Positions 637-61,328 of a stretch of DNA of 64,000 bases are shown one piece after another (the first letter of the stretch is position 1; each line of letters opens with the position of its first letter). Below the pieces are notes generated by a model that was given only the letters and a program-made list of their open reading frames with translations, searched no databases and had not been told where the DNA came from. Origin of the DNA: Ruegeria sp. EL01 (GTDB taxonomy: Bacteria > Pseudomonadota > Alphaproteobacteria > Rhodobacterales > Rhodobacteraceae). The position numbers were made by a program, and so were the translations under genes. The stretch lies in NCBI RefSeq assembly GCF_900313035.1, contig NZ_OMPS01000036.1, forward strand, positions 1-64,000, written 5' to 3'.

Positions 637-661
637 CAGCTGATCGGCTTCACCGGACGGA

Positions 662-1030
662 CACATCCTTGATCTCCTTTGTGAACCTACGGTTCTTGCA
701 GGCTCTATTGTCTGCGCATGCGTCGGTTTGTTGGTTGTGGCCAGTTCCCAGTCCATGTTCTTTGTTATTTTTGGAGCCGCTGTGATCGGTATCGGCGTTG
801 CAGTAGTGTACCCAGTGTCTCTTTCGATAGCGGCCCGGAGATCCGAAAGGCCAGAACGAGACGTGGCAACAATGTCCTTCATATGTTTTGCTAGCCTAAC
901 GGCAAGTCCTGCCGCTGTAGGGGCCTTGGGCGAGATGTATGGGCTTCGAGTAACTTTCGGATTATTCGCTTGCATCTCACTTCTCGCGCTGTTCCTTCTC
1001 CCGATCGTTGGTGCAAGAAGTGACAAATAG
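662..1030 (+). pseudogene. MFS transporter, C-terminal fragment
   Basis: The open frame upstream of the first possible start (TTG at 728) begins near the IS66 end and reads GHILDLLCEPTVLAG, an MFS-like loop, followed by about three hydrophobic helices and a basic tail ending VGARSDK. A whole MFS protein has around 400 residues and 12 helices; only about 120 residues remain. The 5' part seems to have been lost or displaced by the adjacent IS66 insertion. Substrate cannot be told. It may still be translated from TTG 728, but function as a transporter is unlikely. Confidence 0.7.
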
Positions 1031-1062
1031 GACGCGGCATTAAGAAAGCTTGGGATCGAACC

Positions 1063-1458
1063 ATGCGTTTTGTGAACCCCCTCCCTTTTGTATCGGACAT
1101 GTCTCGGTCAGTAGTTTTCTACCGGGAGGTTCTTGGTCTAAGTGTGATTGCTGATCACGGCAATTTCGTTCAGTTCGGCAACGGGTTTGCGCTCCATGAC
1201 GGGTCAACGCTTCTTCAAACAATCTTTGGAAACGCCAATGCCGCTGAGAAACCTTATGGTCGGAAGAATTTCGTCCTATATTTTCAAGTTGAAGACATCG
1301 AGGCAACAGCTGCAGAGATCGAATCCAAAGTTGATTTGATACATTCGCTGTGTCAACAAACATGGGGAGAGAGGGTCTTCCGGTTCCGCGATCCTGATGG
1401 GCACATCATCGAGATTGGTGAGGCGCAGCAGGGCTCGAAGCGAAAAAAGACAACTTAG
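1063..1458 (+). CDS. VOC family (glyoxalase/bleomycin resistance-like) protein
   Basis: A 131-residue protein, the usual size of a single-domain vicinal oxygen chelate protein. It starts MRFVNPLPFVSDMSRSVVFYREVLGL, the typical first beta-alpha-beta unit, and ends with FRFRDPDGHIIEIGE, the second unit with the conserved metal-ligand-type Glu. Members are metal-dependent lyases, dioxygenases or antibiotic-binding proteins, so the substrate is open. It lies 32 bp after the MFS fragment on the same strand, so the two may once have been an efflux/resistance pair. That link is inference. Confidence 0.85.
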   Translation: MRFVNPLPFVSDMSRSVVFYREVLGLSVIADHGNFVQFGNGFALHDGSTLLQTIFGNANAAEKPYGRKNFVLYFQVEDIEATAAEIESKVDLIHSLCQQTWGERVFRFRDPDGHIIEIGEAQQGSKRKKTT

Positions 1459-1590
1459 AGTGAAAGAGATCGGCATTGAAGTCAGGCATGTCGTTGCCTC
1501 AAGATATACGTTCGGGCCAATCTCTTGAATTGCTAGGCCTCCGTTCTCTGATCTTTGCATCTATCCTCGTCGCCCAAAATCCACGTGCTG

Positions 1591-2049
1591 CTATATTCGA
1601 TCAGGAAGTCCCCTACCGTTGTTCCACCAGCGATTCGGGTTTTCACTTTGCGGATCGTAGGCAGCGCGGCTTGCCCAATCCTCTCTGACAAAAATCACCG
1701 GTTCTTCGTAGTGATGAGCGTAGATGATGGCATCCATAACTTTTGAGAGAATGCCCAAGTCCCGCTCAACGGATATCTTTAACTCAACCATGGGGTAATT
1801 TTCAGTTTCGCCTGCCTCAAACCCCTCTACATGCGCTGTCGTTGTCGAGTCAGGCTCGGGCTGCGATGTTTCTTTCCCAGTAGCTGAAATACTCGCATTA
1901 CGTTGATACCGGCCGAAGCTCAATGAATGAACTTTCATGACTTCATCCAAAATACGATCTGTATCTTCCGGCAGTGTCTGAACCTCAACGGTCCACACGG
2001 GAACGAGTGCACCAGATCGGGCTCTATACTCTGTCAAATCAACCATCAA
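1591..2049 (-). CDS. small CutA/NIF3-like (PII-fold) protein, paralog of the 2961-3428 product
   Basis: A 152-residue soluble protein. Its C-terminal half has AIIYAHHYEEPVIFVRE followed by a W, SR, Y and the NPNRWWN end block. The H-x-EEP pattern resembles the HPYEEP/HPYE segment of NIF3 insertion domains and CutA, which adopt a PII-like fold. No catalytic residues are assignable. It closes an apparent operon with the EamA permease and a paralog sharing the HxEEPxI...NPxxxWN pattern. A 150-bp stretch of this gene is copied at 13797-13946. The fold assignment is inference from a motif; the function is unknown. Confidence 0.6.
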   Translation of the reverse strand: MMVDLTEYRARSGALVPVWTVEVQTLPEDTDRILDEVMKVHSLSFGRYQRNASISATGKETSQPEPDSTTTAHVEGFEAGETENYPMVELKISVERDLGILSKVMDAIIYAHHYEEPVIFVREDWASRAAYDPQSENPNRWWNNGRGLPDRI

Positions 2050-2112
2050 GAGATCTCCATTTTTATTTCGTATGGGTTTGCTTTGTCGCCTTGTCTTCTG
2101 ATCGCGCGGTCT

Positions 2113-2964
2113 TCATTTCTGATCACACGTGGCGAGCACCACCGCGATGAGAACCAGCGCACCGCCTGCGATGGTGCGAATATGTGGAACTTCAGAAAGA
2201 ATTAGAAACGCCAGAACTGGTGCCAGAGGAACCTCAAGTGTGCTCAAGAGCGCGGTCTGTCCTGATGGAACGCGCTTTGCTCCTTCGGCGAGTGTTACTG
2301 ATGCTATGGCGAAGACCAGACCAAACGCACTGAGTATCAGAATTTCGGAAACCGGGATTCCGAGTGGATTGCCCAGAAAAAACGCAACTGGTACGAGCAA
2401 TAAAGAAGACAGGGCTGATGGTCCTGCGCCGGGTGTAGATGGAAACCGACGATAAATTACCATCAGAATAGCCATGGCAACGGCCATTCCCAATGCAAGA
2501 AGGTCACCGCGAAGGTTGATCTGGCCCAATGACCCCGAGACTATGATCGCGACACCCGCAAGTGCGAGCAGCGAACCGGCAATAACCGTTCTGGAGGCCT
2601 TTTCGCCAATCCACACCCACGCCAGCAGCGCCGCCAACATCGGTGCCACCGCATAAATTAATGATACGTTGGCGATTGTGGTCAGTTTGAAGGCGGCTAT
2701 GAAAGCCGCGGTGCCAAGTGCACCGACGGCGGCCACCGCGACGCCGCTGATCCCCATCTTCGGGAAATTGTCATGGATCTGACCACGATGCCAAACCCAC
2801 AATGTTGTGAATCCGGCAGAGAACACGCCCCGCCAGAAGATAATATCCCATGGTGCCGTCTGCACACCTTTGGAAAAAAGCCCGGCTGTGCTGAAGGTAA
2901 TCGCAGAGACAACGACAAGCATGATGCCCAGCCTGTATTGCGAGCGTGTTGCCTGCTCAATCAT
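2113..2964 (-). CDS. EamA/DMT family permease
   Basis: A 283-residue protein with about ten hydrophobic helices arranged as two repeats of five, the size and layout of drug/metabolite transporters of the EamA type. The second repeat contains SALSSLLLVPVAFFLG and ends with a helix followed by a short ATCDQK tail. DMT permeases exchange or export small metabolites at the inner membrane. Its ATG overlaps the stop of the upstream CutA-like gene by 4 bp (ATGA), so they are co-translated. Being bracketed by two related small soluble proteins is unusual and suggests those proteins sense or deliver the substrate. Confidence 0.88.
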   Translation of the reverse strand: MIEQATRSQYRLGIMLVVVSAITFSTAGLFSKGVQTAPWDIIFWRGVFSAGFTTLWVWHRGQIHDNFPKMGISGVAVAAVGALGTAAFIAAFKLTTIANVSLIYAVAPMLAALLAWVWIGEKASRTVIAGSLLALAGVAIIVSGSLGQINLRGDLLALGMAVAMAILMVIYRRFPSTPGAGPSALSSLLLVPVAFFLGNPLGIPVSEILILSAFGLVFAIASVTLAEGAKRVPSGQTALLSTLEVPLAPVLAFLILSEVPHIRTIAGGALVLIAVVLATCDQK

Positions 2965-3428
2965 TCCTCATGCACCTTCTCAGAAATAGCCGTCCCATGA
3001 ATGGCCTGCGCATCGGGGCGGTTCCAATACTTGCTCGGATTGTCTTTATTGCCGGTATAGTTGGACCGTGTGCCCCAGCACTCACTAATGCGTATTGTCG
3101 GCTCTTCATGGACATGATTTGCGAAGATGATCGAAAGTGTTTGCTCAAGACGCTGCGTATCCTGTGCGATAGAAATTGTAATATCTACAACAGGCACGGA
3201 CTGAATCGTTTGCTCGGCCCCGGCATGCGACCCTTCCAAAGCGCGAAACTGCTGTTCGCTTGCTGCCGACACGTGCAAGCAGCAGTCATAATGTCCCTGC
3301 TTCAGGTCAACACCCTTGCCTAACGCTTCGAGCAAAGACTCTTTTCCCTGCACAGGCGTCTGGATGACCATCACCCATTCCTTTTCCAGAAAAGCATCTT
3401 CCAAATCCACTTCTGCCAAACCGACCAT
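2961..3428 (-). CDS. small CutA/NIF3-like (PII-fold) protein, first gene of operon
   Basis: A 155-residue soluble protein. The C-terminal part reads IIFANHVHEEPTIRISECW, then TRSNY and DNPSKYWNR, matching the spacing in the product of 1591-2049 although the N-terminal halves have diverged. The HxxEEPxI core resembles CutA and NIF3-insert PII-like folds. It overlaps the EamA start and is the promoter-proximal gene. A winged-helix regulator starts 71 bp away on the other strand. No enzyme residues are recognised; a sensing or binding role is a guess from fold and context. Confidence 0.6.
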   Translation of the reverse strand: MVGLAEVDLEDAFLEKEWVMVIQTPVQGKESLLEALGKGVDLKQGHYDCCLHVSAASEQQFRALEGSHAGAEQTIQSVPVVDITISIAQDTQRLEQTLSIIFANHVHEEPTIRISECWGTRSNYTGNKDNPSKYWNRPDAQAIHGTAISEKVHEE

Positions 3429-3499
3429 TTGCTTCCCTCTACTCGTTTTCTAGGTTCTAGCAGTTGACGCGAGCAGCATACTTCGGTTATTTCCGAACT

Positions 3500-4213
3500 A
3501 TGCATGACGAACCTCCCATGTCGCGGGTGGGTGCTCTAATCGGTTCCCCGGCACGCGCATTGATACTGACCGAGCTTTTTGATGGCCGGGCGCTAACGGC
3601 CACCGAGCTCGCCAGTGTTGCGAGTGTTTCCCCCGCAACAGCAAGCGAACATCTGGGTCTTTTGTTGGCAGGTGGGTTGGTTACTCGAGAAAAGAGTGGG
3701 CGGCATAGCTACTACCGTCTCGCTTCACCCGAAATTGCAAGCGCGCTTGAGCAACTGGCCGTACAAACAGCAAACGTCGGCTCCGCAGCGAAGTCCATTC
3801 GAAAAACCCTTACACGTACACCAATCCAAAGTGCACGAATGTGCTATGATCACATTGCCGGGCGTCTGGGGGTGTCGATTGCAGATGCTTTGTTGAAAAA
3901 AGGCGCCTTGATCGCATTAGACACAGATTACGAACTCACCCCAGAAGGTGAAATGTTGTTTGAGTCATGGGGTATAAATCCTACAGATCTGAGACGATCG
4001 AAACGGGTTTTCGCCCAACAGTGCTTGGATTGGAGTGAACGCCGCCATCATGTCTCCGGTGCTGTCGGGGCCGCGCTGGCCAAACTCGCGCTCGAGAAAG
4101 GCTGGATAGCACGCGCTAAAGAACGCCGGGTTCTGGTCGTCACACCGTTTGGGCAGCGAGAGTTGAAAACCCACCTCGGTATTTCATATGACCAGGTTGA
4201 GAAAAGGGCTTAG
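3500..4213 (+). CDS. ArsR-type winged-helix transcriptional regulator with C-terminal extension
   Basis: From ATG 3500 (alternative ATG 3518) the protein has 237 residues. The first 90 carry an ArsR-like wing: RALILTELFDGRALTATELA, then SPATASEHLGLLLAGGLVTREKSGRHSYYRLA. The rest, with CYDHIAGRLGVSIADALLKKGA, is a second domain seen in longer ArsR-like regulators, of unknown ligand. An upstream TTG at 3464 is less likely because it adds poorly conserved residues into the promoter gap. The divergent arrangement suggests it controls the CutA-like/EamA operon. Confidence 0.82.
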   Translation: MHDEPPMSRVGALIGSPARALILTELFDGRALTATELASVASVSPATASEHLGLLLAGGLVTREKSGRHSYYRLASPEIASALEQLAVQTANVGSAAKSIRKTLTRTPIQSARMCYDHIAGRLGVSIADALLKKGALIALDTDYELTPEGEMLFESWGINPTDLRRSKRVFAQQCLDWSERRHHVSGAVGAALAKLALEKGWIARAKERRVLVVTPFGQRELKTHLGISYDQVEKRA

Positions 4214-4545
4214 AACTCGGTCGCGTTCCTAGGTCAGATTTTAGATCTTTGTATAGAATGTATCGCACAGTTTCTTGAAACATGGATTGTTCGACCGGAG
4301 TAAGATGCACTAGCAGAACGCAACTTGCATGAACAAATGCGCACAACGATACGATCGCGAAAGTTAAATACCGAAGAAGTCCACTATCAGAATCAGGCTT
4401 GAGACTTCAAGTTGCCTATCGAACATTATCGGACAGTTGCTGAAGGTTTCGTACTGCCAACTACCAAGCATCAACTACTACTTAGGTCGTGTTGACAAAA
4501 GGGATTCACAATTTGGGTCAGGCGTGATTCAAGCTGGTATCTGCT

Positions 4546-4956
4546 ATGGAGAGCCGCTTGCCCCGAGACCTGATGAGCGACGAGGAATGGTCGCTGTTTG
4601 AACACTTCATTTTTGCGGTTCGTGCCCCCAACGGGCGCAAACCCTCGAACCATCGCCTTGTTCTGGATGGGGAATTCTGGATTGCGCGCACCGGATCGCC
4701 TTGGCGGGACCTGCCCGAAGAGTTCGGCAAATGGTCAAGCGTTTACAGGCAGTTCCGGCGTTGGACATTGGCAGGGCTGTGGGAGGATATACTCGAGGCC
4801 CTGAACCATAGCGGGGCAGTTCCGGACGCCCTGCAAATGATCGACAGTACCGTCATCCGCGCTCACCACCAGGAAGCAGGCGCAAAAGGGGGGCTCCGAG
4901 ACAGGGTTTTGGCCGTTCAAGAAGTGGGTTCACGACCAAGATCCACCTCCGCGTAA
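4546..4956 (+). CDS. IS5 family transposase, first frame (OrfA)
   Basis: A 136-residue product with the IS427-type N-terminus: LPRDLMSDEEWSLFEHF, then FWIARTGSPWRDLPEEFGKWSSVYRQFRRW and the first catalytic Asp in MIDSTVIRAHH. After AKGG the reading leaves the family consensus, because the continuation GFGRSRSGFTTKIHLRVNAHG is encoded in the -1 frame. Full transposase therefore needs a -1 shift at the A4G6 run at 4884-4893. This arrangement is normal in this IS group and is not by itself a sign of decay. Confidence 0.9.
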   Translation: MESRLPRDLMSDEEWSLFEHFIFAVRAPNGRKPSNHRLVLDGEFWIARTGSPWRDLPEEFGKWSSVYRQFRRWTLAGLWEDILEALNHSGAVPDALQMIDSTVIRAHHQEAGAKGGLRDRVLAVQEVGSRPRSTSA

Positions 4957-4967
4957 ACGCGCACGGA

Positions 4968-5333
4968 TTGCCTATGAGAACGGACATCACACCGGGCCAA
5001 ACGTCAGACCATCTGGGGTTTGATCTGGTGATGTATGATAATTTGCCTGAGCCGCGCGTGCTATTGGCGGATCGGGGCTATGATGCTGATCGTATTCGCA
5101 AAACCATGCATGAGCGCAATGTGCTGACCCAAATTCCGATGCGCAAAACCCGCAAGATACGCGTCGGTGTGGATCACGGGCTTTACCGTCTTCGAAACAT
5201 GGTCGAGCGCTGCTTCAACAAGCTCAAAAACGCCCGCCGCGTTGCCACCCGCTACGACAAAACCGCAGAAAGCTATCTCGGCTTCATCGACATAACATCA
5301 ATCCGCCTCTGGGTCCGCCATTTGTCAACATGA
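4968..5333 (+). CDS. IS5 family transposase, second frame (OrfB)
   Basis: The C-terminal part of the DDE transposase, with LPEPRVLLADRGYDADRIR holding the second catalytic Asp and YRLRNMVERCFNKLKNARRVATRYDK holding the last Glu. The frame is open upstream of the first start to the slippery site at 4884-4893, so the natural product is an OrfAB fusion, not a protein starting at 4968. The stop lies inside the right inverted repeat, as usual in compact IS5 elements. Confidence 0.9.
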   Translation: MPMRTDITPGQTSDHLGFDLVMYDNLPEPRVLLADRGYDADRIRKTMHERNVLTQIPMRKTRKIRVGVDHGLYRLRNMVERCFNKLKNARRVATRYDKTAESYLGFIDITSIRLWVRHLST

Positions 5334-5366
5334 CCTAAGCGTTCATCAGCCCGCAAACGATCTGGA

Positions 5367-5993
5367 TCAGTTTTCAGCAAAAGCGAGTGCAACCGCAGAA
5401 ACCTGGGTTGCTATCTCAATCTCATCACGCGAGGCTGCCCCTTGGCCCTGCAAGGCTAGCCTGGCGGATGCACCTATCAACTCTAGCAACAAAATTGCCA
5501 CTATCGTGGGGTTTATGGATATTGAAGGACGCGCCCGTTTTAATGAATGACCAATGAATCGGCCAATCTTTTCGTTTTCCTGGTTGCAAAGTTCAGACAG
5601 CTCCGGCGAGCTCCGGGCACCCATCCAGACAGCAGGCAAAACTGGATCATCCAAAAACAACTGAAAGTACTTGCTTACCAGTGTTTGCACTGCGGCCATC
5701 AAGTCACTCTGACTTTCCACCGAGCTGAACAATTGTTGGACAAGTCGGTGAATGTCTTCGTGGTGAAGTTCTATCAGGGAGACCATGATCGCCGATTTTC
5801 CTGAGAAGTATCGGTAGATTGCGCTCCGCTTCATCCCAGCGCGGTGCGCGATTTCGTTCATAGTTAGGTTCTCATATCCGCCTTCCAGAATGCCCTGCCG
5901 AGTTGCGTCCAGCACTTGATCAACTCGTTGAATACTACGCGATTGTGTCGGTTTCCGCCGATAATAGGTTTCAGTTTGATCATCTTTCTTCAT
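5367..5993 (-). CDS. TetR family transcriptional regulator
   Basis: A 208-residue protein. Residues about 25-70 form the TetR helix-turn-helix: LDATRQGILEGGYENLTMNEIAHRAG followed by KRSAIYRYFSGKSAIMVSLIE. The C-terminal 130 residues are helical and would bind a ligand not identifiable from sequence. It is divergent from the deacetylase/C45/MFS operon with about 120 bp between the starts, and that gap holds a dyad (6038-6083). A role as local repressor of the operon is inferred from this geometry. Confidence 0.9.
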   Translation of the reverse strand: MKKDDQTETYYRRKPTQSRSIQRVDQVLDATRQGILEGGYENLTMNEIAHRAGMKRSAIYRYFSGKSAIMVSLIELHHEDIHRLVQQLFSSVESQSDLMAAVQTLVSKYFQLFLDDPVLPAVWMGARSSPELSELCNQENEKIGRFIGHSLKRARPSISINPTIVAILLLELIGASARLALQGQGAASRDEIEIATQVSAVALAFAEN

Positions 5994-6037
5994 TCGGCAC
6001 GCAATCTCTCAAGGTGTTGCTGTAAGAGATTGACAAA

Positions 6038-6083
6038 AACGTGACGGGTTGTCATCTATTAAAACACAACATAGTGTCACGTT
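6038..6083. promoter_or_regulatory. dyad in the TetR/deacetylase divergent promoter
   Basis: The arms AACGTGAC (6038-6045) and GTCACGTT (6076-6083) form a perfect 8-bp inverted repeat with a 30-bp centre. A TTGACA at 6030-6035 could be a -35 element reading toward the deacetylase. Position and symmetry make this a candidate TetR operator. TetR operators are often more compact, so the exact site is uncertain. Confidence 0.45.
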
Positions 6084-6116
6084 AGTAGTAGAATCACTCA
6101 CACTGTGGAGACCTTA

Positions 6117-6914
6117 ATGTCTGAAACAAAAACCCAAGCTACACTTACCTTTGATTTTGACGCAGAATCCCTCTGGATGTCTTTGGGGCAAATGTCTCCC
6201 CAGCCTATGTCGCGCGGGAAATATGGCGCACAGGTTGGAATCGAGCGCATCTTGTCCCTGCTTGAACGTGAATCCATCCCCGCAACGTTCTTTGTGCCGG
6301 GAGAAACAGCGCGTCGTCACCCAGACAAAGTACGTGCAATCGTCGACGCCGGCCATGAAATTGGACATCACGGAGACGTCCACGAGGCCCCGGCAACTCT
6401 CGCGATCGATGAGGAAAGAAAGTGTATGGCGCGGGGGATAGAAGCACTGGTAGATGTCACCGGGAAACGACCGAATGGCTATCGGTCTCCATCCTGGGAC
6501 TTCAGTGAAAATACGCTGGGTTTGCTGAAAGAATTCGAGTTTGAGTGGGACAGCAGCTTAATGGCCGATGACTTTCGGATTTACGAGCTGGAAGATGCAG
6601 GAGGCGACGGAACAGGTATCACCGAATTGCCGGTTTCATACGAACTAGATGATGCGCCATACTACCTCTTTGCATTTATGCCGGTTTATCTGGCTGGCAT
6701 GAGCGACCCAGATAAAGTCCTGCGTATTTGGGAAAGTGAGTACAGGGGAGCGGCTGAAATTTCAGGCCTGTTCAATCTGACAATGCACCCACAGATCACC
6801 GGGCGTTACTCAAGGATGCAGGTTCTGGAGCGGCTGATTAAAACAATCAAAGATAGCGGCCAAGCTGAATTCGTGACCTGCTCCGACGCCGTATCGAATT
6901 TGAAAAGCCGTTGA
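6117..6914 (+). CDS. polysaccharide deacetylase (NodB-type) family protein
   Basis: A 265-residue protein from ATG 6117, preceded by GGAGAC as ribosome site; a GTG at 6105 is the alternative start. The NodB signature is clear: TLTFDFDAES with the catalytic/metal Asp, IPATFFVPGE, then AGHEIGHHGDVHEAP with the metal His pair, and YRSPSWDFS. Such enzymes hydrolyse N-acetyl amides on glycans, but this cytosolic-looking subgroup without signal peptide also includes cyclic-imide hydrolases and PuuE-type allantoinases. With a C45 hydrolase downstream, amide or cyclic-amide hydrolysis of a small molecule is as likely as glycan deacetylation. Confidence 0.85.
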   Translation: MSETKTQATLTFDFDAESLWMSLGQMSPQPMSRGKYGAQVGIERILSLLERESIPATFFVPGETARRHPDKVRAIVDAGHEIGHHGDVHEAPATLAIDEERKCMARGIEALVDVTGKRPNGYRSPSWDFSENTLGLLKEFEFEWDSSLMADDFRIYELEDAGGDGTGITELPVSYELDDAPYYLFAFMPVYLAGMSDPDKVLRIWESEYRGAAEISGLFNLTMHPQITGRYSRMQVLERLIKTIKDSGQAEFVTCSDAVSNLKSR

Positions 6915-6916
6915 AC

Positions 6917-7981
6917 ATGGTGGAAATTCAAGATGTTCCCTTGATCGAGGCGGCCGGAACTCCGGCCGCAATCGGTTACAGTATCGGTGAACAAAGCCGC
7001 GACCAAATCTCCGCGACGATTGATCTATATGCAGAGATATTTGCGAGACCCAAGGACGAGATTTTCCGCGCTGCAGAGCATTTTCGGGTTCAGATTGAGC
7101 GTTTTGCCCCCAGTTTGTCCGAAGAAATCTCGGCCATGGCTGAGGCCGCAAAGGTAGATCGCCGTTGGCTATTTACCTTAAATGCGCGCAGCGAACTTCT
7201 TTCCGCGCTTGCGGTCGGCGAATGTACTTCTGTCCATTTCACCGAGACACCTTTCCTGGGCCAAAATTGGGACTGGCTGGAGCCGCTCGAAGAACTGATG
7301 ATGTTACAGCGGATAACCGACACCACTGGCCACACAACGTTGATGCTAACTGAGCCGGGAATCGTTGGAAAAATAGGTCTGAATTCTGCTGGGATTGGTG
7401 TCTGCCTCAACTTCCTGCCGACCTCAAATCCAACCCTTGGCGTTCCTACACACATATTGTTGCGTCATCTCCTATCAGCGAGAACTTGGTCCGAACTACA
7501 AGTCATCGTCGGTCGTGCTGGTAGTGGGAGATCGGCCAATCTACTCATCGCCGACGAAACAGGCAGAAGCTTAAACATCGAGTTTGATGGATTGAACGCG
7601 CGAACATATGAAGCTGGACCAAAGGCGACTGCGCATACAAACCACTATCTCGCATCCGAAATCCCAGTTGCTGAAGTGTTGTTCGAGAATTCCAATGCAC
7701 GACTCAACAGAGCGAGGGTGCTTGTGGAAAACCTCGAAGATCTTGGTCTAAAGCAGCTAAAAACACTACTTTCCGACACCTCAGACCAGAAGAACCCCAT
7801 TCTTGCGCCCTATAGAGAGATCCCAGCCTTCCGCGGAAAGCTCGGGACGGACTGCTCGATCGCCATGGATCTTGAGCGTCGTCAGATGCACTTTCGACGC
7901 GGCAATGATCCACGTTCCCTTTTTGAGGGTCTGCCCGTGCAAGTGGATTTTGCAGATAGAAAAGAGGGTACTGCGATATGA
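6917..7981 (+). CDS. C45 family autoproteolytic acyltransferase/hydrolase
   Basis: A 354-residue protein in the family of acyl-CoA:6-aminopenicillanate acyltransferase, N-terminal-nucleophile enzymes that cleave themselves before a Cys. Cys103 in VGECTSVHF is the candidate nucleophile, followed by FLGQNWDW, KIGLNSAGIGVCLNFL and the late AHTNHYLA segment, all typical. It has 354 residues and no signal peptide. ATG 6917 follows the deacetylase stop by 2 bp, and its own stop overlaps the MFS start (ATGA). It probably hydrolyses or transfers an acyl group on an amide; the substrate is unknown. Confidence 0.88.
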   Translation: MVEIQDVPLIEAAGTPAAIGYSIGEQSRDQISATIDLYAEIFARPKDEIFRAAEHFRVQIERFAPSLSEEISAMAEAAKVDRRWLFTLNARSELLSALAVGECTSVHFTETPFLGQNWDWLEPLEELMMLQRITDTTGHTTLMLTEPGIVGKIGLNSAGIGVCLNFLPTSNPTLGVPTHILLRHLLSARTWSELQVIVGRAGSGRSANLLIADETGRSLNIEFDGLNARTYEAGPKATAHTNHYLASEIPVAEVLFENSNARLNRARVLVENLEDLGLKQLKTLLSDTSDQKNPILAPYREIPAFRGKLGTDCSIAMDLERRQMHFRRGNDPRSLFEGLPVQVDFADRKEGTAI

Positions 7982-9210
7982 GCCCAAATGCGATTGCCTC
8001 GGGTTCATGGCAGGACCGCGAGTTTCTTGTCATTGTTGCACTATTGATGTCGAGCACGGTGCTGGCCATTAATATGATCTTGCCGGCGTTCGATCAGATT
8101 TCTTTAGAATTTGCGCTTCCCACAGCGACACGTGTTGGACTTGCGCTTGGGACCCTTTATGTTGGGCTTGCAGCTGGGCAAACTATATTGGGACCCTTGT
8201 CAGATACTATCGGACGTCGAAGCACGCTCTCCGCAGGTCTGCTGATCTTCGTGTTTGGAAGCGTAGTATCAGGGGTATCACCCACCTTTGAAACTTTGTT
8301 GATAGGTCAGCTCATCCTTGGATTCGGTTTGGGGGCCCCTCGTGTCCTCACCATCGCAATTTTCCGTGATCGCTATTCGGGTCCTCGCATGGTGCGAGCG
8401 ATGTCACTGGTGATGACGATATTTGTGATTGCGCCAACCTTTGCTCCATCGCTTGGACAAGAAATTGTCATAAAACTCGGGTGGCGATTTGTCTTTGCGG
8501 TTTACGTGATCTTCGGCCTCGTGCTGCTGGGCATTGTTAGGCAGCGCCTTCAAGAAACGATGCATCCCAGTTTGCGCCGCGCCTTTAACTTTGCTTCAGT
8601 TGTTAAAACCTACCAAACGATAGCTAAGAACCAACAGGCACTTAGCTATGCCCTGGCATTGGGGATCATCACTGGTCCGTTTGTTGCCTATCTCAACTTG
8701 TCGCAGCAGATTTTTGAGTTCCAGTATGATCTTAGCACGTTCTACCCGCTTCTGTTTGCAATGCTGTCGCTTTGGCTTGGAGTGGCATCACTGGTGAACG
8801 GGTGGCTGGTCACAAGGACAAGCCCAGCACTGATAGTAACAGTTGCGACCCTATTGCTCATTCTAGGATCTGTGTTTGTGTTAGGAGGCATGCGCTATTG
8901 TTCGGGAAATATCCCGATCTCGATATTTGTCGGATATGCCTCTTTGTTTCTCTTCTGTCTTGGTTTTTTGATCGTGAATATCAACGCGCTTGCGATGCAA
9001 AGCCTCGCACATTACGCAGGCACAGGCGCCGCGTTTGTCGGAGCTCTATCAACACTAGTCTCTATTCCGATCGCGGTCCTGACTGGTGAGCTAACTAGGT
9101 CAACAGCCATGCCTTTAGCTTGGTGCTTTTTCATATCAGCGAGCGTAGCACTGGTTATTCATCTTATGTGTCTAAGAAAAGCTCAACTTGAGACCAAGGA
9201 TTCCAACTAA
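7978..9210 (+). CDS. MFS transporter, Bcr/CflA-like
   Basis: A 410-residue membrane protein with 12 predicted helices. The loop between helices 2 and 3 reads GPLSDTIGRRSTLSAGLLIF, the MFS motif, and the N-terminal half (MILPAFDQISLEF) follows the Bcr/CflA drug-exporter pattern. It is translationally coupled to the C45 gene by a 4-bp overlap. In this operon it may export or import the compound processed by the two hydrolases; the direction cannot be told. Confidence 0.9.
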   Translation: MSPNAIASGSWQDREFLVIVALLMSSTVLAINMILPAFDQISLEFALPTATRVGLALGTLYVGLAAGQTILGPLSDTIGRRSTLSAGLLIFVFGSVVSGVSPTFETLLIGQLILGFGLGAPRVLTIAIFRDRYSGPRMVRAMSLVMTIFVIAPTFAPSLGQEIVIKLGWRFVFAVYVIFGLVLLGIVRQRLQETMHPSLRRAFNFASVVKTYQTIAKNQQALSYALALGIITGPFVAYLNLSQQIFEFQYDLSTFYPLLFAMLSLWLGVASLVNGWLVTRTSPALIVTVATLLLILGSVFVLGGMRYCSGNIPISIFVGYASLFLFCLGFLIVNINALAMQSLAHYAGTGAAFVGALSTLVSIPIAVLTGELTRSTAMPLAWCFFISASVALVIHLMCLRKAQLETKDSN

Positions 9211-9264
9211 GCAGGTTGATGCTCAGAGCACCCGACCAGTCGACGAGCCAAAACACTGGCCTTC

Positions 9265-9738
9265 CTAATCTACTTTGACTGAGTAGTTTAGGAGAGCTTC
9301 GATCGCCCGCAAAGTGTCGTCTCCTATCGCAGCGCATAACTCATTATCGAGATCAAAGAAGAAGCGTCGCGCAAACGACACCATACGCTCGCCCTCCACA
9401 GTGAAATGTATGGCTTTCTGGTTCTGCAAGTTCGGATTCTGAAAGGTCTCTAGCCATCCAGCTGCTTCTAGTTCGCGAACGGTTTTGTGAACGGCCTGCC
9501 GTGAGATGTTCAATCTCCTAGCAACATTCGCCGCATGGTTAGCATCGCAATCCAGAGCTGCAAGAAAGGTGATCTGGCTGCGTTTGATACCCGCAAATCC
9601 CTCTGAACAAAGACGCTCTACCAAACGGTCAAGTATTCGCTCTTGAAAAGAGTCCATTTCATAGAGAAGCGACAGCGACCTGCTTTCAAGCATCTCGTAC
9701 CCCGCGCGCGGCGATTTTCTTGTTAACTTGGTTGACAT
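9265..9738 (-). CDS. MarR family transcriptional regulator
   Basis: From ATG 9738 it has 157 residues. The wing-helix core is FAGIKRSQITFLAALDCDANHAANVARRLNISRQAVHKTVRELEAAGWLE. Alternative starts are TTG 9768 and ATG 9693; the latter would leave the dyad at 9723-9773 wholly outside the coding region, which is attractive for autoregulation. It is divergent from a small membrane protein and alpha/beta hydrolase operon, the likely target. Unlike most MarR proteins, the N-terminus before residue 16 is basic and poorly conserved. Confidence 0.87.
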   Translation of the reverse strand: MSTKLTRKSPRAGYEMLESRSLSLLYEMDSFQERILDRLVERLCSEGFAGIKRSQITFLAALDCDANHAANVARRLNISRQAVHKTVRELEAAGWLETFQNPNLQNQKAIHFTVEGERMVSFARRFFFDLDNELCAAIGDDTLRAIEALLNYSVKVD

Positions 9739-9773
9739 TACTCTATCCCCAACTATCTTGTCCACCAAGTTAA
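9723..9773. promoter_or_regulatory. inverted repeat, candidate MarR operator
   Basis: The arms TTAACTTGGTTGACA (9723-9737) and TGTCCACCAAGTTAA (9759-9773) match at 14 of 15 positions when reversed, separated by 21 bp. They sit between the MarR gene and the divergent 9795 gene. Long symmetrical arms at this place fit autoregulation plus control of the membrane protein/hydrolase pair. Confidence 0.6.
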
Positions 9774-9794
9774 CAATATTAGAGGGTCTTTACC

Positions 9795-10166
9795 ATGTTG
9801 AAATCCGTCTTAGTTGCCAATGCAGCATCATGCGCGCTGTTCGGTTTGATCTTTGTCCTGAAGGGGCCCACTGTCTCTGACTTCCTCGGATCACCGCCGA
9901 CAGTTCTCCTATATGTCATCGGAGCAGGACTTCTTGTTAATGCAGTATTCTTGGCGATGGAGGCACGACGCGACACCCCACGAGCAGAAAGTGTGCGCAG
10001 CTTTGCTATCGGGGATGGGATCTGGGTTCTACTCTCCATTGTCCTCGTTGTTACCGGAACATGGATCACAAATGGTCCAGGAATTGCCTGGACCATTGCA
10101 GTCGCGGTTTTTGTCGGCATTTGCGGCTTCCTGCAATTCACCTTGACTGGAAGGCGGGCACTGTAA
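9795..10166 (+). CDS. small four-helix membrane protein
   Basis: A 123-residue, almost entirely hydrophobic protein with four helices: residues about 2-22, 35-53, 70-90 and 98-118. It ends in TGRRAL. No family motif is recognised with certainty. Its stop overlaps the next start by one base (TAATG), so it is translationally coupled to the alpha/beta hydrolase and likely works with it at the inner membrane. Confidence 0.75.
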   Translation: MLKSVLVANAASCALFGLIFVLKGPTVSDFLGSPPTVLLYVIGAGLLVNAVFLAMEARRDTPRAESVRSFAIGDGIWVLLSIVLVVTGTWITNGPGIAWTIAVAVFVGICGFLQFTLTGRRAL

Positions 10167-11200
10167 TGACACGTCTTAGCAACTCCGCAGAAGCTATCCC
10201 TGATCAAACAAAAAGACGCGGTCGTTTGAAGAAGTGGACGCTGATAGCGATTGGTTCGTTCGTTGCGCTTCTAGTCCTAACTGCCTTTGGCGCCTTTGGA
10301 TTTCAAACGCTTCGCAACAACCGTATCGCAAGCGAGTTTGAGCTTCCCGGCACAATGATCACCACCGCACATGGTGACCTCTATGTGAATTGTCAGGGTG
10401 ATCGAGCGAACCCCGCAATCATCCTTGAAAACGGTATGGGGCTTGCCTCTGAAAACTGGGACTGGATCCAGAGCGATCTGGCGGAGGATTTCCTCGCTTG
10501 CGCCTATGACCGGTCAGGAATCGGTTTCAGCCAAGACCACGCCGAAGCCGTAGATGCAGGACATAGTGCTGAAACTCTAGCGCAACTGATCGAACAAGTT
10601 GGCATCACCGACCCGGTCCTTGTGGTTGGTCACTCATATGGCGCATTGATAGCCCGAGTTTTTGCTGATCGTTTTCCAGACACAACCGCTGGGTTGGTTT
10701 TGGTTGATTCCTCTCATGAAGATATGGCTGAACGATTTCCACCGGAAGAACGCCAAGGTTTCCGCGATATGTTGGATGGGTTTTCCATTCTGCGCACGGC
10801 AAACCATTTCGGTGGAGCGCGAATGATGGGTGTCCCGGAGATGTTTGCCCCCGGCCTCGAGGAGGGTGCGAAAACACGCGCCACTTACCTCTATGAATCC
10901 GTTCCCCATATGGCGGGGTCAGCCGCCGAGGCCGAGGGCTGGACACATTCCGCGCAGCTCGCACGTGAAGTGGCCGGACGTGGGCTTGCTGACCTCCCTC
11001 TGGTCGTGATCATGGTAGATGGCTGGCCGGAAACCATGATGCCCTCATGGTCCGCTATGCAAAATGAACTGGCCTCCCTATCGTCCTCAGGTTCCGTCAC
11101 TGTAATTGAGGGGGCAGATCATTTCGGTGTCCTAACCAGACCCCGTTTTGCAAAGCAGGTCGCTGAAGCCATTCGGTTGTTGGCGCAAAACGCTTTCTAA
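10166..11200 (+). CDS. membrane-anchored alpha/beta hydrolase
   Basis: A 344-residue protein from ATG 10166. A basic stretch (KRRGRLKKW) and one helix at about residues 25-48 anchor the N-terminus. The hydrolase fold follows: NPAIILENGMG with the oxyanion region, YDRSGIGFS, then VVGHSYGALIARVFADRFP with the nucleophile Ser, and a late Asp and the GADHFGV His. Substrate is unknown; esterase, lipase or epoxide-type reactions are all possible. The 3' 163 bp are duplicated at 13942-14104. Confidence 0.9.
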   Translation: MTRLSNSAEAIPDQTKRRGRLKKWTLIAIGSFVALLVLTAFGAFGFQTLRNNRIASEFELPGTMITTAHGDLYVNCQGDRANPAIILENGMGLASENWDWIQSDLAEDFLACAYDRSGIGFSQDHAEAVDAGHSAETLAQLIEQVGITDPVLVVGHSYGALIARVFADRFPDTTAGLVLVDSSHEDMAERFPPEERQGFRDMLDGFSILRTANHFGGARMMGVPEMFAPGLEEGAKTRATYLYESVPHMAGSAAEAEGWTHSAQLAREVAGRGLADLPLVVIMVDGWPETMMPSWSAMQNELASLSSSGSVTVIEGADHFGVLTRPRFAKQVAEAIRLLAQNAF

Positions 11201-11348
11201 CTCGGAAGCGCCTTTCGGTCTGCCGATGCTCTTCCTCACAGTGCTCTTGAGGAATTGGAGCCTCGATACCTCCAGACACCACAAAGTGGACGATCCCAAA
11301 AACAGCACTTGTGAAGACAAACCGTTGCGGCCCAAGTTCAAACTAAAC

Positions 11349-12028
11349 GTAAGCGTTGCGTGCAGGTCACCTTCCATCCCTGTCCCTGATCTGAGATTCC
11401 GCCTTGGAGTGATTTCTTGAGGTGAGTTTCTCCATGGAGAGTACAAGAGAGTTTCTCATTGGGCTTGGTGTTATCTTCTCAGCTGATGGGAGGCGGCGTT
11501 GGCCGGATGATGTGAAGGCGCGGATTGTGGCGGAGACGCTGCTGCCGGGTGCGACAGTGAATGATGTTGCTGCCAAATATGGCTTGAAGCCGAACCATGT
11601 CTCGTCGTGGCGGCGGATGGTCGCCGCCTTCGGCGAGTGGCTGCAAACTCAACGCACCCGTGTTTCGGCCAAGTCCCGACTTGGAGAAAAGCTCGCCTAT
11701 ATCGCCAACCACTGGGAGGGGTTGCAAACCTTCCTCAACGACGGACGCGTCGAGATCGACAGCAACCAGGTCGAAAATCTGATCCGCCCAATTGCCCTGA
11801 ATCGCAAAAATGCACTATTTGCAGGTCACGACGAGGGCGGCAAAGCCTGGGGCCGTATCGCCTCGTTGATCGAAACCGCGAAAATCAACAGCGTCGAACC
11901 CTACGCCTATCTCAGGGCCACTCTCGAAGCCATCGCAGCCGGACACCCCAAAAACCAGATCGACGATCTACTCCCGTGGAACTTCAAGCCGTCAAACTAA
12001 AACCAGACGGCCTTCAGCCACCGCTTAC
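11349..12028 (+). mobile_element. internally deleted IS66 derivative with 8-bp target duplication
   Basis: The element starts GTAAGCG (11349) and ends CGCTTAC (12028), the IS66 termini. The 8 bases AACTAAAC flank both sides (11341-11348 and 12029-12036), the exact duplication length of IS66. A full IS66 is about 2.5 kb and encodes TnpA, TnpB and TnpC; this one is 680 bp and keeps only one fused frame. It therefore moved as a deleted, non-autonomous element using transposase from elsewhere, or was deleted after insertion without losing its ends. Confidence 0.92.
11422..12000 (+). CDS. IS66 TnpA-TnpC fusion protein created by internal deletion
   Basis: The first 65 residues are IS66 Tnp[21 protein letters not shown], then [17 protein letters not shown], a helix-turn-helix that recognises the ends. 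From about residue 66 the protein is the TnpC C-terminus: [19 protein letters not shown], then [33 protein letters not shown] and the ending DLLPWNF. TnpB and the first catalytic residues are absent, so it cannot transpose alone. The join keeps one open frame. It could act as an end-binding inhibitor. Start is GTG 11422 or ATG 11434. Confidence 0.85.
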
Positions 12029-12077
12029 AACTAAACACTGCTACAGATTAGATATCGATCTCTAGAAATGTCCGTCG

Positions 12078-12257
12078 TCAGGGATTTTGGGACAGATGGC
12101 GAAGGGCACAGTTATGCAAACTCTTCCGGACATCGCCCCAGCCGATTGTCAATCCTGTTTTGTTGAGGTGGAAAAGCGCGTGCGGATCGCGTAACCACTC
12201 CAACACCTGTTGGCGTTTTTCGCTCCCCAATGCCCGGATCACATTATTCTTAGGCAT
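12078..12257 (-). pseudogene. ArsR-like regulator, truncated
   Basis: From ATG 12257 the product begins MPKNNVIRALGSEKRQQVLEWLRDPHA, the first two helices of an ArsR winged-helix domain (alternative upstream start 12293). After that the sequence no longer fits the family and the recognition helix is missing; a stop follows at 59 residues. The deletion lies near the deleted IS66 element and may be connected to it. A 16-bp palindrome sits just upstream of ATG 12257, supporting a former autoregulated regulator. Confidence 0.45.
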
Positions 12258-12265
12258 CAGTCCAT

Positions 12266-12281
12266 ATAGTCGTGCGACTAT
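12266..12281. promoter_or_regulatory. 16-bp palindrome upstream of the ArsR-like remnant
   Basis: ATAGTCG and CGACTAT form a perfect 7-bp inverted repeat around TG. It lies 9-24 bp before ATG 12257 of the truncated ArsR gene and just past the methyltransferase stop. Size and place fit an ArsR-type operator. Confidence 0.5.
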
Positions 12282-12285
12282 GTAG

Positions 12286-13050
12286 TTAAGCATGCACCGG
12301 AGCTATGCGCCCCACGACAGGCCAAGTTACAGCCTTCTTCTCCTCAGGGTTCCCCCAGAGCGGTCCGAGATCACGCACGAATCCATCGACAACTGCACCG
12401 TCACCGGCGGCGAGCGCCCGTTTCGCGGCAGACCATGTGCAGACATATGCGATGAATTGTCCGAGGTACCATTCGCGGGTGATCAAAAGGGTTGGAAAAG
12501 CTTCTTCTAAAAAGGGGAAAGCGAGCGTTCGGTAGCCCTCCTCGACATGTCGCCGCCCTTGGGGCCAGTGTGCGTGTAAGTCCTGCCAGTAGAATCTAGC
12601 CAGACGTTCCCCGATTGCGCCATCCATCGTTGGAACGCCGTAGGAGATCAGCGCCAGAAGCGCGTCGGGACGGGCAACCCGTCGCACTTCGGCATAGAAC
12701 GCATCGAGGTCGAACCAGTGCGCAGCCTGTGCCGCCGTCACGAGATCGACAGACGCTTCTGGCAGTCCGATCCGCTCTGCCGGTTCGGGATGGTAGGTCA
12801 CACGGGGATGTGCGGTGGCGTTCTCGAGCTGGCCCTCACTCGGGTCCGTTGCTGTTACCCGCCCGAACCGATCAGCCAGCAAAACCGAAAGCTGCCCACT
12901 GCCACATCCGACATAGAGGGCGTGCTGCGTTTCGCCGCACCGTTCCGCAAGGGCATCGGCCAGCGATACTGGGTAGGTCGGTCGGCTGGACGCATATGCC
13001 GCTCCGCCCGTGAGAAAATGATTGTTGCCACCTTGTCCGGCATCAATCAT
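12286..13050 (-). CDS. class I SAM-dependent methyltransferase
   Basis: A 254-residue protein from ATG 13050, which overlaps the end of the MarR gene by 8 bp. Motif I is ALYVGCGSGQLSVLLADRF (a Cys replaces the usual Asp/Glu-rich variant only slightly), motif II is TATDPSEGQLENA, and QAAHWFDLDAFYAEVRRVARPDALLALISYG covers motifs III-IV. The AAHWFD segment is typical of small-molecule methyltransferases of the UbiE/YcgJ style. The acceptor is unknown. It is co-expressed with a MarR regulator. Confidence 0.9.
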   Translation of the reverse strand: MIDAGQGGNNHFLTGGAAYASSRPTYPVSLADALAERCGETQHALYVGCGSGQLSVLLADRFGRVTATDPSEGQLENATAHPRVTYHPEPAERIGLPEASVDLVTAAQAAHWFDLDAFYAEVRRVARPDALLALISYGVPTMDGAIGERLARFYWQDLHAHWPQGRRHVEEGYRTLAFPFLEEAFPTLLITREWYLGQFIAYVCTWSAAKRALAAGDGAVVDGFVRDLGPLWGNPEEKKAVTWPVVGRIAPVHA

Positions 13051-13519
13051 CCGCCGTCCCTGTTGACAGCCGAGCCAGACGTTCGGCAAATCCTTCGTGT
13101 TCGAGTGCGCATATCGCATCTTTCAGAATCGTGCGTAGCGGGGCACCGATTTCCGTCTCCAGTTCGGAAACCGCGGCGAGCCGAAGTTGCCATTGCGCGA
13201 CTAAGGCCTCACGCAACGCAGACCCGTCCGGCGTGAGTATGATCGCGCGGGACCTGCTGTCATCGGTCGGAATTCGGTCGATAAGACCATCAGCTTCCAT
13301 CCGTTTAACCGTCTGGCTGATCGCGCCCTGTGTGATGTGGAGGCGGTTGCAAAGCTCCGAGACAGACACCGGCTGGCCGTCGAGAGCCCGCATGATGGGT
13401 GTACATCTTGGCCGGTAGGACAGTCCAGCATTGCGGTAGGCTTCCTGAGAACCTCTGTCGAGCAGATCGGTCAGGTGCCTCAGCACCTCACCAAGCCCTG
13501 TGGTCGTGGACTGGATCAT
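13043..13519 (-). CDS. MarR family transcriptional regulator
   Basis: A 158-residue protein. The winged helix reads QPVSVSELCNRLHITQGAISQTVKRMEADGLIDRIPTDDSRSRAIILTPDG, a textbook MarR recognition helix and wing. It is first gene of a two-gene operon with the methyltransferase. A 20-bp palindrome lies 9 bp upstream of its start and before the divergent TauE-like gene, so it probably represses both. Confidence 0.92.
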   Translation of the reverse strand: MIQSTTTGLGEVLRHLTDLLDRGSQEAYRNAGLSYRPRCTPIMRALDGQPVSVSELCNRLHITQGAISQTVKRMEADGLIDRIPTDDSRSRAIILTPDGSALREALVAQWQLRLAAVSELETEIGAPLRTILKDAICALEHEGFAERLARLSTGTADD

Positions 13520-13528
13520 GCCAATTGA

Positions 13529-13548
13529 TTACATTAGCACTAATGTAA
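13529..13548. promoter_or_regulatory. 20-bp palindrome, candidate MarR operator
   Basis: TTACATTAG and CTAATGTAA form a perfect 9-bp inverted repeat around CA. It lies between the divergent MarR (start 13519) and TauE-like (start 13587) genes. Length and AT-rich symmetry match the usual MarR operators. Confidence 0.65.
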
Positions 13549-13586
13549 AATCAAGAGAGGGCCGCTGTTTTGCAAGGACGAAACCT

Positions 13587-13796
13587 GTGATCGAGCCCCT
13601 AATCATTGGCTTGGTCTTTCTGAGCGCAGGAGTGGTGAAGGGCACAGTTGGAATCGGCCTTCCGACAATATCGGTGGCTGTGCTGACAGCAGTGATCGGA
13701 CTGGATCAGGCGATAGCCGTATCGCTGTTGCCATCTTTTGCGTCGAACCTCTGGCAAGCCATCGACGGTGGCGCTGCGCGACACCTGATCCGTCGC
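13587..13796 (+). pseudogene. TauE/SafE-type sulfite exporter family permease, N-terminal fragment
   Basis: From GTG 13587 the product reads VIEPLIIGLVFLSAGVVKGTVGIGLPTISVAVL, the characteristic first helices of TauE/SafE permeases with the glycine-rich GTVGIGLPT loop. Homology ends after about 70 residues at the junction with a copied CutA-like fragment (13797). A full permease has about 250 residues. The gene is therefore dead, though its operator (13529-13548) and start remain. Confidence 0.7.
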
Positions 13797-13946
13797 CTTG
13801 CCCAATCCTCTCTGACAAAAATCACGGGTTCTTCGTAGTGATGAGCATAGATGATGGCATCCATTACTCTTGAAAGAATGCCCAAGTCCCGCTCAACAGA
13901 TATCTTTAACTCAACCGTGGGGTAGTTTTCAGTTTCGCCTGCCTCA
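13797..13946 (-). pseudogene. 150-bp copy of the CutA/NIF3-like gene (from 1670-1819)
   Basis: This stretch aligns base for base, without gaps, to 1670-1819 at an offset of 12127, with only a handful of substitutions. On the minus strand it encodes AGETENYPTVELKISVERDL and AIIYAHHYEEPVIFVREDWA, the core of the small CutA/NIF3-like protein. It has neither the start nor the end of the gene. It is bounded by a TauE fragment on the left and a hydrolase fragment on the right. Confidence 0.85.
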
Positions 13947-14104
13947 TGGTCCGCCATGCAAAATGAACTGGCCTCCTTATCGTCCTCAGGTTCCGCTACT
14001 GTGATTGAGGGGGCAGATCATTTCGGTGTCCTAACCAGCCCCCGTTTTGCAAAGCAGGTCGCTGAAACCGTTCGATTGGTGGCACAAGACGCTTTCTAAC
14101 TCGG
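13942..14104 (+). pseudogene. 163-bp copy of the alpha/beta hydrolase 3' end (from 11043-11205)
   Basis: The segment aligns to 11043-11205 at an offset of 2899, without gaps and with about a dozen substitutions. It carries the late part of the hydrolase including the GADHFGVLT catalytic His segment and the terminal stop. It joins the previous fragment through the shared bases CCTCA, a microhomology junction. It cannot be translated as a functional hydrolase. Confidence 0.85.
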
Positions 14105-14928
14105 TAGGGCATTGCCCTACCAAATTAGTGTGCTGCGAACGGCGAGGGAGCTCCTTGTTCATAGCCAAATCTTTAGGGTTCTTGGGTTTTCCCTCGCCGC
14201 GCCAGCAGGCTCCGTTCCCGTGAGTTGAGACGAGACAAAAACTCGTGCGCAACCAGGTCCTCTTACAAGAAGGGCGGCTCATTGATTCAACCGTGAACAC
14301 TAGCTTGAGCCAACTAAGGCGCAAGACTCAAACGAAGAAGACATGAAGAAGGACAGTGACCGGACGAGTAAAGGGGACAGCTCACGAAAGAGCAAATTGT
14401 TGTTCAATGCAGCAACCAGTGCCTAGGATAGGAAAGCATAAGAATGAGGAGCGGTATCCATATGTCCTGACATCCAAGGGGATCCTAACAGAGCCGCTCC
14501 AGCAAACACTCCATCCATACATGTTTAAGTGCTTCAAGGGCTCCACCAATGGAATGCGGCCTGGTTGCGAACGGAACATGCTCTGGGATCGGTCTTCTTT
14601 TCTCGTGAACACTCTGCAAGGTGGTAGCAAGCACTCCCAGAAGTTCTTCAATATCGGCTGTGTCTGGTCACTTCTCTTGCAACGGAATTCTCAAGTTGTC
14701 CCTTCCAAAAAACATACTCAGAGATACCGATTGTCTCCGAATATGCTGCCAACAATACTATTCACAAACTTAGCAATCCCTAGGCTCGGATTTTGTGACA
14801 CTCCGCATCCGTCGTCGGTGCTCTTAGAGGGCGAACTCTATTTCGTAGCAGAGCCTTGTTTGAACTTAGGCTGCGGCGGCTTGACGTCGCAAGCGGTGTT
14901 TTCGGATTTACGATAATCTGGTTTGAGT
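14105..14928. other. 824-bp stretch without recognisable gene
   Basis: No frame gives a protein with family resemblance. The one long frame (14356-14916, plus) has a composition rich in Cys, Ser and Pro and no hydrophobic or domain pattern, so it is probably spurious. No inverted repeats or IS ends were seen. It may be decayed sequence between the mosaic and the NUDIX gene. Confidence 0.5.
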
Positions 14929-15363
14929 TCACAAAGCAAGACTGCGGCTCTTCCGGACAGCAATCTTGACTACGGTATCTACGTGTTCGCTACAGAGGAT
15001 TCTACCAGAAAGCAGATCGGTGATCGGTCGCCATTCGGCTGCGTTGACGTCGTCTGCCGCGATTGGTTCGCCGGACAAATACTCACACAGCACGACCGCG
15101 AGCAGGAAATGATGCCGAACATCGCAGTTTTTGTCTCTGACGATAACATCCACATTGGTCAGATATGTCAGAGATTTCGCCGCGATGCCAGTTTCCTCGC
15201 ACAACTCTCTCACGGCGGCTTCTTTTGCAGTCTCGCCCAGGTTCACATGACCACCCGGAAACCCCCAAAGACCGGCATCCGGTTCATTTCTGCGTTTCAC
15301 TAGGAGTACTTTGTCATCCCGGATGACGACGGCAATTGCCGCTAGTCTTGGGCTATCCGTCAT
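14929..15363 (-). CDS. NUDIX hydrolase
   Basis: A 144-residue single-domain protein. The NUDIX box is complete: GGHVNLGETAKEAAVRELCEETGI, giving the metal-binding REL-x2-EE-x-GI pattern, preceded by GLWGFPGG. These enzymes split nucleoside diphosphates linked to another moiety; the DAGLWGFPGGH start is common in MutT/ADP-ribose-like sanitising members. It stands alone, followed by a short gap before the Rrf2 gene on the same strand. Confidence 0.93.
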   Translation of the reverse strand: MTDSPRLAAIAVVIRDDKVLLVKRRNEPDAGLWGFPGGHVNLGETAKEAAVRELCEETGIAAKSLTYLTNVDVIVRDKNCDVRHHFLLAVVLCEYLSGEPIAADDVNAAEWRPITDLLSGRILCSEHVDTVVKIAVRKSRSLAL

Positions 15364-15521
15364 GGTTGAAAGTCAGCCTTTCCCGTTGCCACCGGATTTG
15401 CACTAACTTATGGCTGAACCGTCGGGCGATTTCTTCCAAAATTATGTGAAGATGCTTGGTGTTAGCATCTGATCCAGCGGTGATGTTTTTGTCTAGTAAG
15501 ATTGTGAAACTGGCCCATGCT

Positions 15522-26344: not shown

Positions 26345-26499
26345 CGAGCATTTGTCTCGCCCATGAATAACCATGGGCGAGACGTGTTAAGGTGTCAGGC
26401 CGCGGGTGATAACATTCCAACGGCTGGCGCGTATCCCGCATTTGCAATGAACTGCGCTCCTTTAACATATTCTTCTTCGTTGCCTGTGACGCCATCCCA

Positions 26500-26700
26500 G
26501 GCCGTAAACAACGCAAGACACCGGTCAAATACGACAAGCGCAGGTACAAACGCCGCAACCGGATCGAGATCATGTTCGGCAGGCTCAAGGATTGGAGGCG
26601 CGTGGCGACATGCTACGACCGTTGTCCCAAGGTCTTCCTCTTAGCCATCGCACTCGCGGCAACCGTTATGTACTGGTTATCAATCCTGACCCTAACAATC
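26500..26700 (+). pseudogene. IS5 family transposase 3' fragment
   Basis: One frame reads KTPVKYDKRRYKRRNRIEIM, FGRLKDWRRVATCYDRCPKV and FLLAIALAATVMYWL, closely matching the end of the degenerate IS5 element at 60429-61270 (YDKRRYNRRNRIEKIFSGLKDWKRVATRYDR). The sequence runs on to TCCTGACCC, the same terminal repeat. The rest of the element is missing. Confidence 0.85.
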
Positions 26701-51613: not shown

Positions 51614-51858
51614 CGAACATTCTTGAGTCACTGAGAGCTTGGCTAGATCCAACCATCCGAGTCCAATTGGGGTTATCAAAGGAACGTAGCCTTTCCAGTT
51701 AAATCTGTTCGGGCTAGCTTTTTTGCTAGAGATCCCGATATCTCCATCGACTCGCCTTTTCGTTTTTATGGGCTCAATCAGAACTCCCCGTTGAAACCGG
51801 TCATTGGCGAAATTGCAGCGAAGGGTAATATTGCCCGCACTTGGCTGGTTCACGCTTG

Positions 51859-61270: not shown

Positions 61271-61328
61271 GAAATTTAGCGAATGCACAGTGTTGCAAAT
61301 TTATGCATGATACTGCATGAAGTTGCAG

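Follow-up and report, generated by a model that had tools for sequence, protein, structure and literature searches.

We analyzed a window of 64,000 nucleotides (i.e., positions 1 to 64000 of the 76,289-base contig C15) from the draft genome of Ruegeria sp. EL01 (5.32 Mb; 49 contigs). Parts of three genes are joined at positions 13587 to 14104, where the stub of a TauE-like gene runs into a 150-bp piece that itself runs into a 163-bp piece. This architecture, including the gapless copies and their limits, had been described in an original prediction made from the same DNA and was reproduced by self-BLAST and Pfam searches. The first part (13587 to 13796; plus strand) is the 5' stub of a TauE/SafE-family gene and comprises 70 codons, as identified from a Pfam TauE match (E = 5e-7), an alignment to 20 relatives, and the translation. 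The second part (13797 to 13946; minus strand, i.e., antisense to the stub) is an internal piece related to the gene at 1591 to 2049; it is 94% identical to positions 1667 to 1819 and is open over 49 codons on the minus strand. The third part (13942 to 14104; plus strand) is the 3' end of a gene for an alpha/beta hydrolase, related to the one at 10061 to 11200, with the reading frame and stop codon kept and no start of its own. Directly 3' of the hydrolase tail lies a hairpin (14103 to 14121; plus strand; z = -3.1 in the DNA fold of 14060 to 14160) that is absent after the intact hydrolase gene, and similarity to the intact gene stops there.

Self-BLAST aligned both pieces to their intact relatives directly and without gaps (1667 to 1819 with 13794 to 13946, 94.1% identity, 9 of 153 positions different, E = 4.5e-62; 11043 to 11214 with 13942 to 14113, 91.3% identity, 15 of 172 positions different, E = 3e-64). 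Chance similarity is ruled out for either piece by E values of about 1e-62 each. The second join lies at CCTCA (13942 to 13946), which belongs to both sources, as was originally noted; at least five shared bases occurred at a frequency of 0.0054 among 200,000 joins made at random between positions of the window. At the first join, a 3-base overlap (CTT) may be common to both sources, as judged from protein only, because the TauE relatives L056 and L058 read R-R-L like the stub; other relatives differ. Inverted repeats of at least 7 bases were not found in the flanks of the mosaic, and the longest flanking direct repeat is TTGCCC (at 13798 and 14112), which is near chance. On these grounds an insertion carried by an IS or a transposon was rejected, in agreement with the earlier view that IS movement is not involved.

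The TauE stub matches positions 3 to 55 of the 237 positions of the Pfam TauE profile with 30.1 bits, below the curated cutoff of 32.6. Its similarity to the family persists for 70 codons, and the proteins of the relatives (n = 20) continue past its break. The TauE frame enters the next piece and ends at a stop codon at 13836 to 13838, giving 83 codons in total. Searching the window by tblastn with the 20 TauE relatives, each taken from match start to stop, revealed no other piece of tauE better than E = 0.04. An insertion into an otherwise whole tauE was therefore discarded, as the remainder of the gene was not found in the window. The tauE block (12100 to 13796) is present in 1 of 54 genomes of the genus, i.e., the genome studied here. 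An intact tauE at the place of the mosaic was found neither in 60 relatives and 393 other genomes of the family, nor in the plasmid collection, nor, for the tauE block, in the 53 other genomes of the genus; these sets have one genome per species.

Both genes related to the pieces are intact in the window. The gene at 1591 to 2049 (minus strand) encodes a conserved alphaproteobacterial protein of approximately 150 amino acids with relatives at 26 loci, 24 of which are 64 to 90% identical to it and which share a conserved stretch (YEEPVI..NPNRWW). These relatives are mostly from Alphaproteobacteria, with additional loci titled Gammaproteobacteria and Ilumatobacter. Searches of Pfam and NCBIfam at a cutoff of 0.001 assigned the protein to no family, and the entries retrieved from Pfam at E ≤ 10 and from the PDB at E ≤ 1 were at chance level; the "CutA-like" label given to it originally is not supported, since it matches neither the CutA family profile nor a solved CutA. 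Our alignment of this family (A1; 21 rows) adds the window protein and two second-copy paralogues to the 26 loci, from which it omits those with an in-frame stop (L020, L030, L032, and L036), one read in two frames (L037), and near copies (L023, L027, and L031). The four loci with an in-frame stop carry one each inside the matched stretch and were found among 25 relatives checked. A related protein of approximately 150 amino acids (2961 to 3428; minus strand) is 26% identical to the 1591-to-2049 protein, and the two genes flank an EamA-type transporter gene. The block at 1594 to 4216 is collinear with the genome of Ruegeria sp. ANG-R at 86%.

The second gene (10061 to 11200; plus strand) encodes an intact alpha/beta hydrolase (Pfam Abhydrolase_1, E = 2.7e-15). 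At 1e-60 it was found in 1 of 394 genomes of the family (i.e., its own), at 1e-12 in 7 of 54 genomes of the genus (its own and six distant ones), and at 1e-30 in 7 of 385 genomes of the class (its own and six at 32 to 40% identity). Queries 1 to 4540 and 9700 to 15400, searched against the own genome, and 4541 to 9699, searched against the window only, revealed no further relatives of either gene.

The mosaic lies in a patchwork accessory region in which blocks of differing G+C content adjoin. The methyltransferase-MarR-tauE block (12286 to 13796) has a G+C content of 59%, and the pieces of the mosaic and both intact genes have 46 to 54%. An IS66 remnant that lost about 1.8 kb internally (11342 to 11985; plus strand) lies 1.6 kb upstream of the mosaic. 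It was delimited by alignment to a fuller IS66 on plasmid pP88_b of Phaeobacter inhibens, to which 11342 to 11620 and 11627 to 11985 align at 494 to 775 and 2584 to 2941, respectively; the 1,808 bases between the aligned ends in pP88_b are represented by six here. An open frame of 192 codons (11422 to 12000; plus strand) fuses the start of one IS66 protein (HTH_Tnp_1) to the end of the IS66 transposase across the approximately 1.8-kb deletion. Another IS66 piece lies at the start of the contig (1 to 667) and recurs at 99% on contig C18 of this genome. The idea that IS66 copies served as direct repeats for duplicating the block was abandoned, as 1 to 636 and 11342 to 11985 are not similar at E = 1e-3. 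Other repeats in the window are a tandem pair of 216-bp units (57083 to 57514; 95% identical) and a 203-bp direct repeat (26493 to 26695 and 61071 to 61273; 75%), and 51492 to 51822 has an inverted copy at the far end of the contig (L089 11958 to 12289; 96% over 332 bp).

The mosaic pieces differ from the intact genes by 5 to 7% (20 of 313 positions in all), a difference missing from the original prediction, which had asked for the copies to be compared with their presumed donors. Divergence is equal in the two pieces (8 of 150 versus 12 of 163 positions; Fisher P = 0.50). These differences also bear on the possibility that the joins are an assembly artefact. The assembly is a draft in 49 contigs; however, the joins lie inside a 76-kb contig, away from its end, and the pieces of a chimera assembled from the two genes would match these exactly, so that we consider an artefact very unlikely.

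To polarize the changes in the 150-bp piece, we used as an outgroup Ruegeria sp. ANG-R (L015), the best named relative of the 1591-to-2049 gene. Over the 150 bp compared, the ANG-R sequence does not differ from that of another genome listed in the same genus (G007). The gene and mosaic versions of the stretch each differ from ANG-R at 21 positions. Of their 8 mutual differences, 3 fall on the gene branch, 3 fall on the mosaic branch, and 2 are unpolarized. The gene-branch changes are all at third codon positions, while those on the mosaic branch are at two second positions and one third position. In the hydrolase tail, one site has Val in the mosaic and in relatives L093 and L094 and Leu in the intact gene, and another has Ala in the gene and its relatives and Thr in the mosaic; none of the hydrolase relatives found was near enough to date the tail by DNA. 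Because polarized changes sit on both branches, both versions have changed since they parted. Both genes are intact in the window, as originally noted, but they are apparently not donors as they stand.

We searched other genomes for the mosaic, for a fuller or intact second copy, and for strains carrying the pieces at higher identity; none of these turned up among 60 relatives and 393 further genomes of the family, with one genome per species. The mosaic query matched 2 of 61 genomes in the set of relatives, i.e., its own and G007, the latter only over its copy of the 1591-to-2049 gene. In the family, 10 of 394 genomes matched, including its own; six of the others matched over the 1591-to-2049 gene and three over short stretches, of which two lie in the tauE part (51 bp and 25 bp) and one spans the first join (41 bp). 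In this family search, two candidates were scored per genome and 2 of 3 own matches were listed, so that some matches may be missed. The plasmid collection gave no match to 13560 to 14300. The 41-bp match (G333; L012 1501 to 1541) corresponds to 13783 to 13823 of the window with 37 of 42 columns identical; it is intergenic, is without similarity on either side, and is matched by the intact gene alone over 33 bp (31 of 33). We tentatively take it as chance or as a promoter-like stretch, although its E value of 1.5e-5 for one genome amounts to about 0.006 over 394 genomes.

The pieces might have entered as single-stranded or linear DNA of a related strain that was patched in at short homologies by illegitimate recombination, an explanation that we consider quite improbable; the join would then have been brought along or formed on entry. 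The divergence of 5 to 7% and the steps in G+C content fit DNA of a relative, as would the possible CTT overlap deduced from the R-R-L TauE relatives. However, the 60 relatives and 393 other genomes of the family, one per species, revealed no strain with pieces of higher identity, and the known short-patch process inserts much shorter pieces.

The order and strands of the intact genes, i.e., the 1591-to-2049 gene (minus strand) first and the hydrolase gene (plus strand) about 9 kb later, are kept in the mosaic. Since the pieces are collinear with the intact genes and equally diverged from them, one second copy followed by deletions suffices to account for both. We therefore regard the mosaic as probably the remnant of a second, diverged version of the block containing the two genes, reduced by deletions. 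A slightly diverged version of the block, which might have originated by an old duplication or by import of a related block, would once have adjoined tauE. A single deletion, about 9.2 kb long if the second version had the present spacing, would have fused an internal part of the first gene to the tail of the hydrolase gene, with CCTCA at the junction. The end of tauE and that of the hydrolase tail would mark further breakpoints at which the flanks of the second block were lost, leaving a truncated and probably functionless product. This history needs just one microhomology join between the pieces, and it is supported by the truncated tauE whose remainder was not found in the window, by the nearby IS66 deletion, which is of a similar kind, by the changes on both branches of the 150-bp piece, by the Val that the mosaic shares with L093 and L094, and by the adjoining blocks of different G+C content. 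Against it, about one in eight chance arrangements would match in order and orientation by our own arithmetic, and the searches of the own genome and the window found nothing of the second copy beyond the two pieces. An earlier report (PMC5447742) describes how inactivated genes of bacteria are eroded by deletions.

The original prediction had instead proposed template switching or recombination of several short segments. Several switches are not required for collinear and equally diverged pieces, and template switching itself survives as an unlikely candidate. According to that scenario, a replication fork stalled in tauE would long ago have copied 150 bp of the first gene and then 163 bp of the hydrolase tail, and the copies would have drifted since. 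The closest relatives of both pieces lie within about 12 kb and resemble them more than anything else found does, the pieces are gapless, and one join has a 5-base microhomology; the share of replacements (8 of 20 changes) also allows for a period of drift. However, two switches would have had to preserve order and orientation, and the gene branch changed as well as the mosaic branch. If the mosaic branch were neutral throughout, it would be expected to hold about 67 to 76% of the changes, while 3 of the 6 polarized changes were seen there, a weak departure (P = 0.16 to 0.31).

The first piece carries 2 replacement and 6 silent changes, and the second carries 6 of each. The ANG-R comparison (4 replacements and 17 silent changes) implies an omega of 0.076. 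The probability of so few replacements is 0.0017 if both copies drifted freely, which is a weak control because free drift is not to be expected of the intact gene. With only the mosaic branch neutral throughout, P falls from 0.058 to 0.023 over omega values of 0.076 to 0.3 (0.035 to 0.023 for omega between 0.2 and 0.3), values that also tell against template switching. If both branches are taken to be constrained throughout, P is 0.015, 0.05, 0.42, and 0.76 at omega values of 0.076, 0.1, 0.2, and 0.3, respectively. These counts, comprising just 20 changes, do not decide between the models. Divergence partly before and partly after fragmentation would fit them.

Nothing points to a function of the mosaic. 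A simple scan of 13480 to 14400 found no sigma-70-type promoter-like site, and the one terminator-like site there, inside the TauE stub, is no more than is found in shuffled sequences. An antisense effect on the 1591-to-2049 gene is conceivable in principle. We consider it extremely unlikely that a single event of serial template switching between neighbouring genes created a locus that, when transcribed from the tauE side, yields an RNA of which 150 nt are antisense (94%) to the 1591-to-2049 mRNA and which dampens that mRNA; if true, this would be an antisense regulator newly born from scrap. Most likely, the mosaic is a product of ordinary decay of the genome and not of a new mechanism of copying. 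A decayed remnant is ordinary, and the join is interesting yet not unusual. The locus illustrates that fused remnants can occur in a compact accessory region with their nearest relatives intact close by, and that a check of divergence and collinearity should precede any appeal to template switching. Its three breakpoints could serve as a small example for the dating of deletions in a marine bacterium, and it is otherwise ordinary.

Template switching and short-patch double illegitimate recombination join short pieces at microhomology, but the collinear pieces of 150 to 163 bp described here do not require either process. The prokaryotic gene remnants and pseudogenes covered in a previous paper (PMC522871) are likewise truncated, nonfunctional relatives of intact genes, and that paper names native duplication and failed transfer as their origins; here, two remnants are fused at a microhomology and stand beside a third. 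In Salmonella, the deletions and duplications that arise spontaneously at short repeats (PMC3411829) likewise have microhomology at their joins, but the confirmed joins there have more than 10 bp, compared with 5 in the mosaic. Tandem duplication by illegitimate recombination has also been described, in a further report (PMC11111574), as occurring without long homology and near horizontally acquired genes. However, those duplications were selected in the laboratory, while the mosaic represents an old event inferred from its remains.
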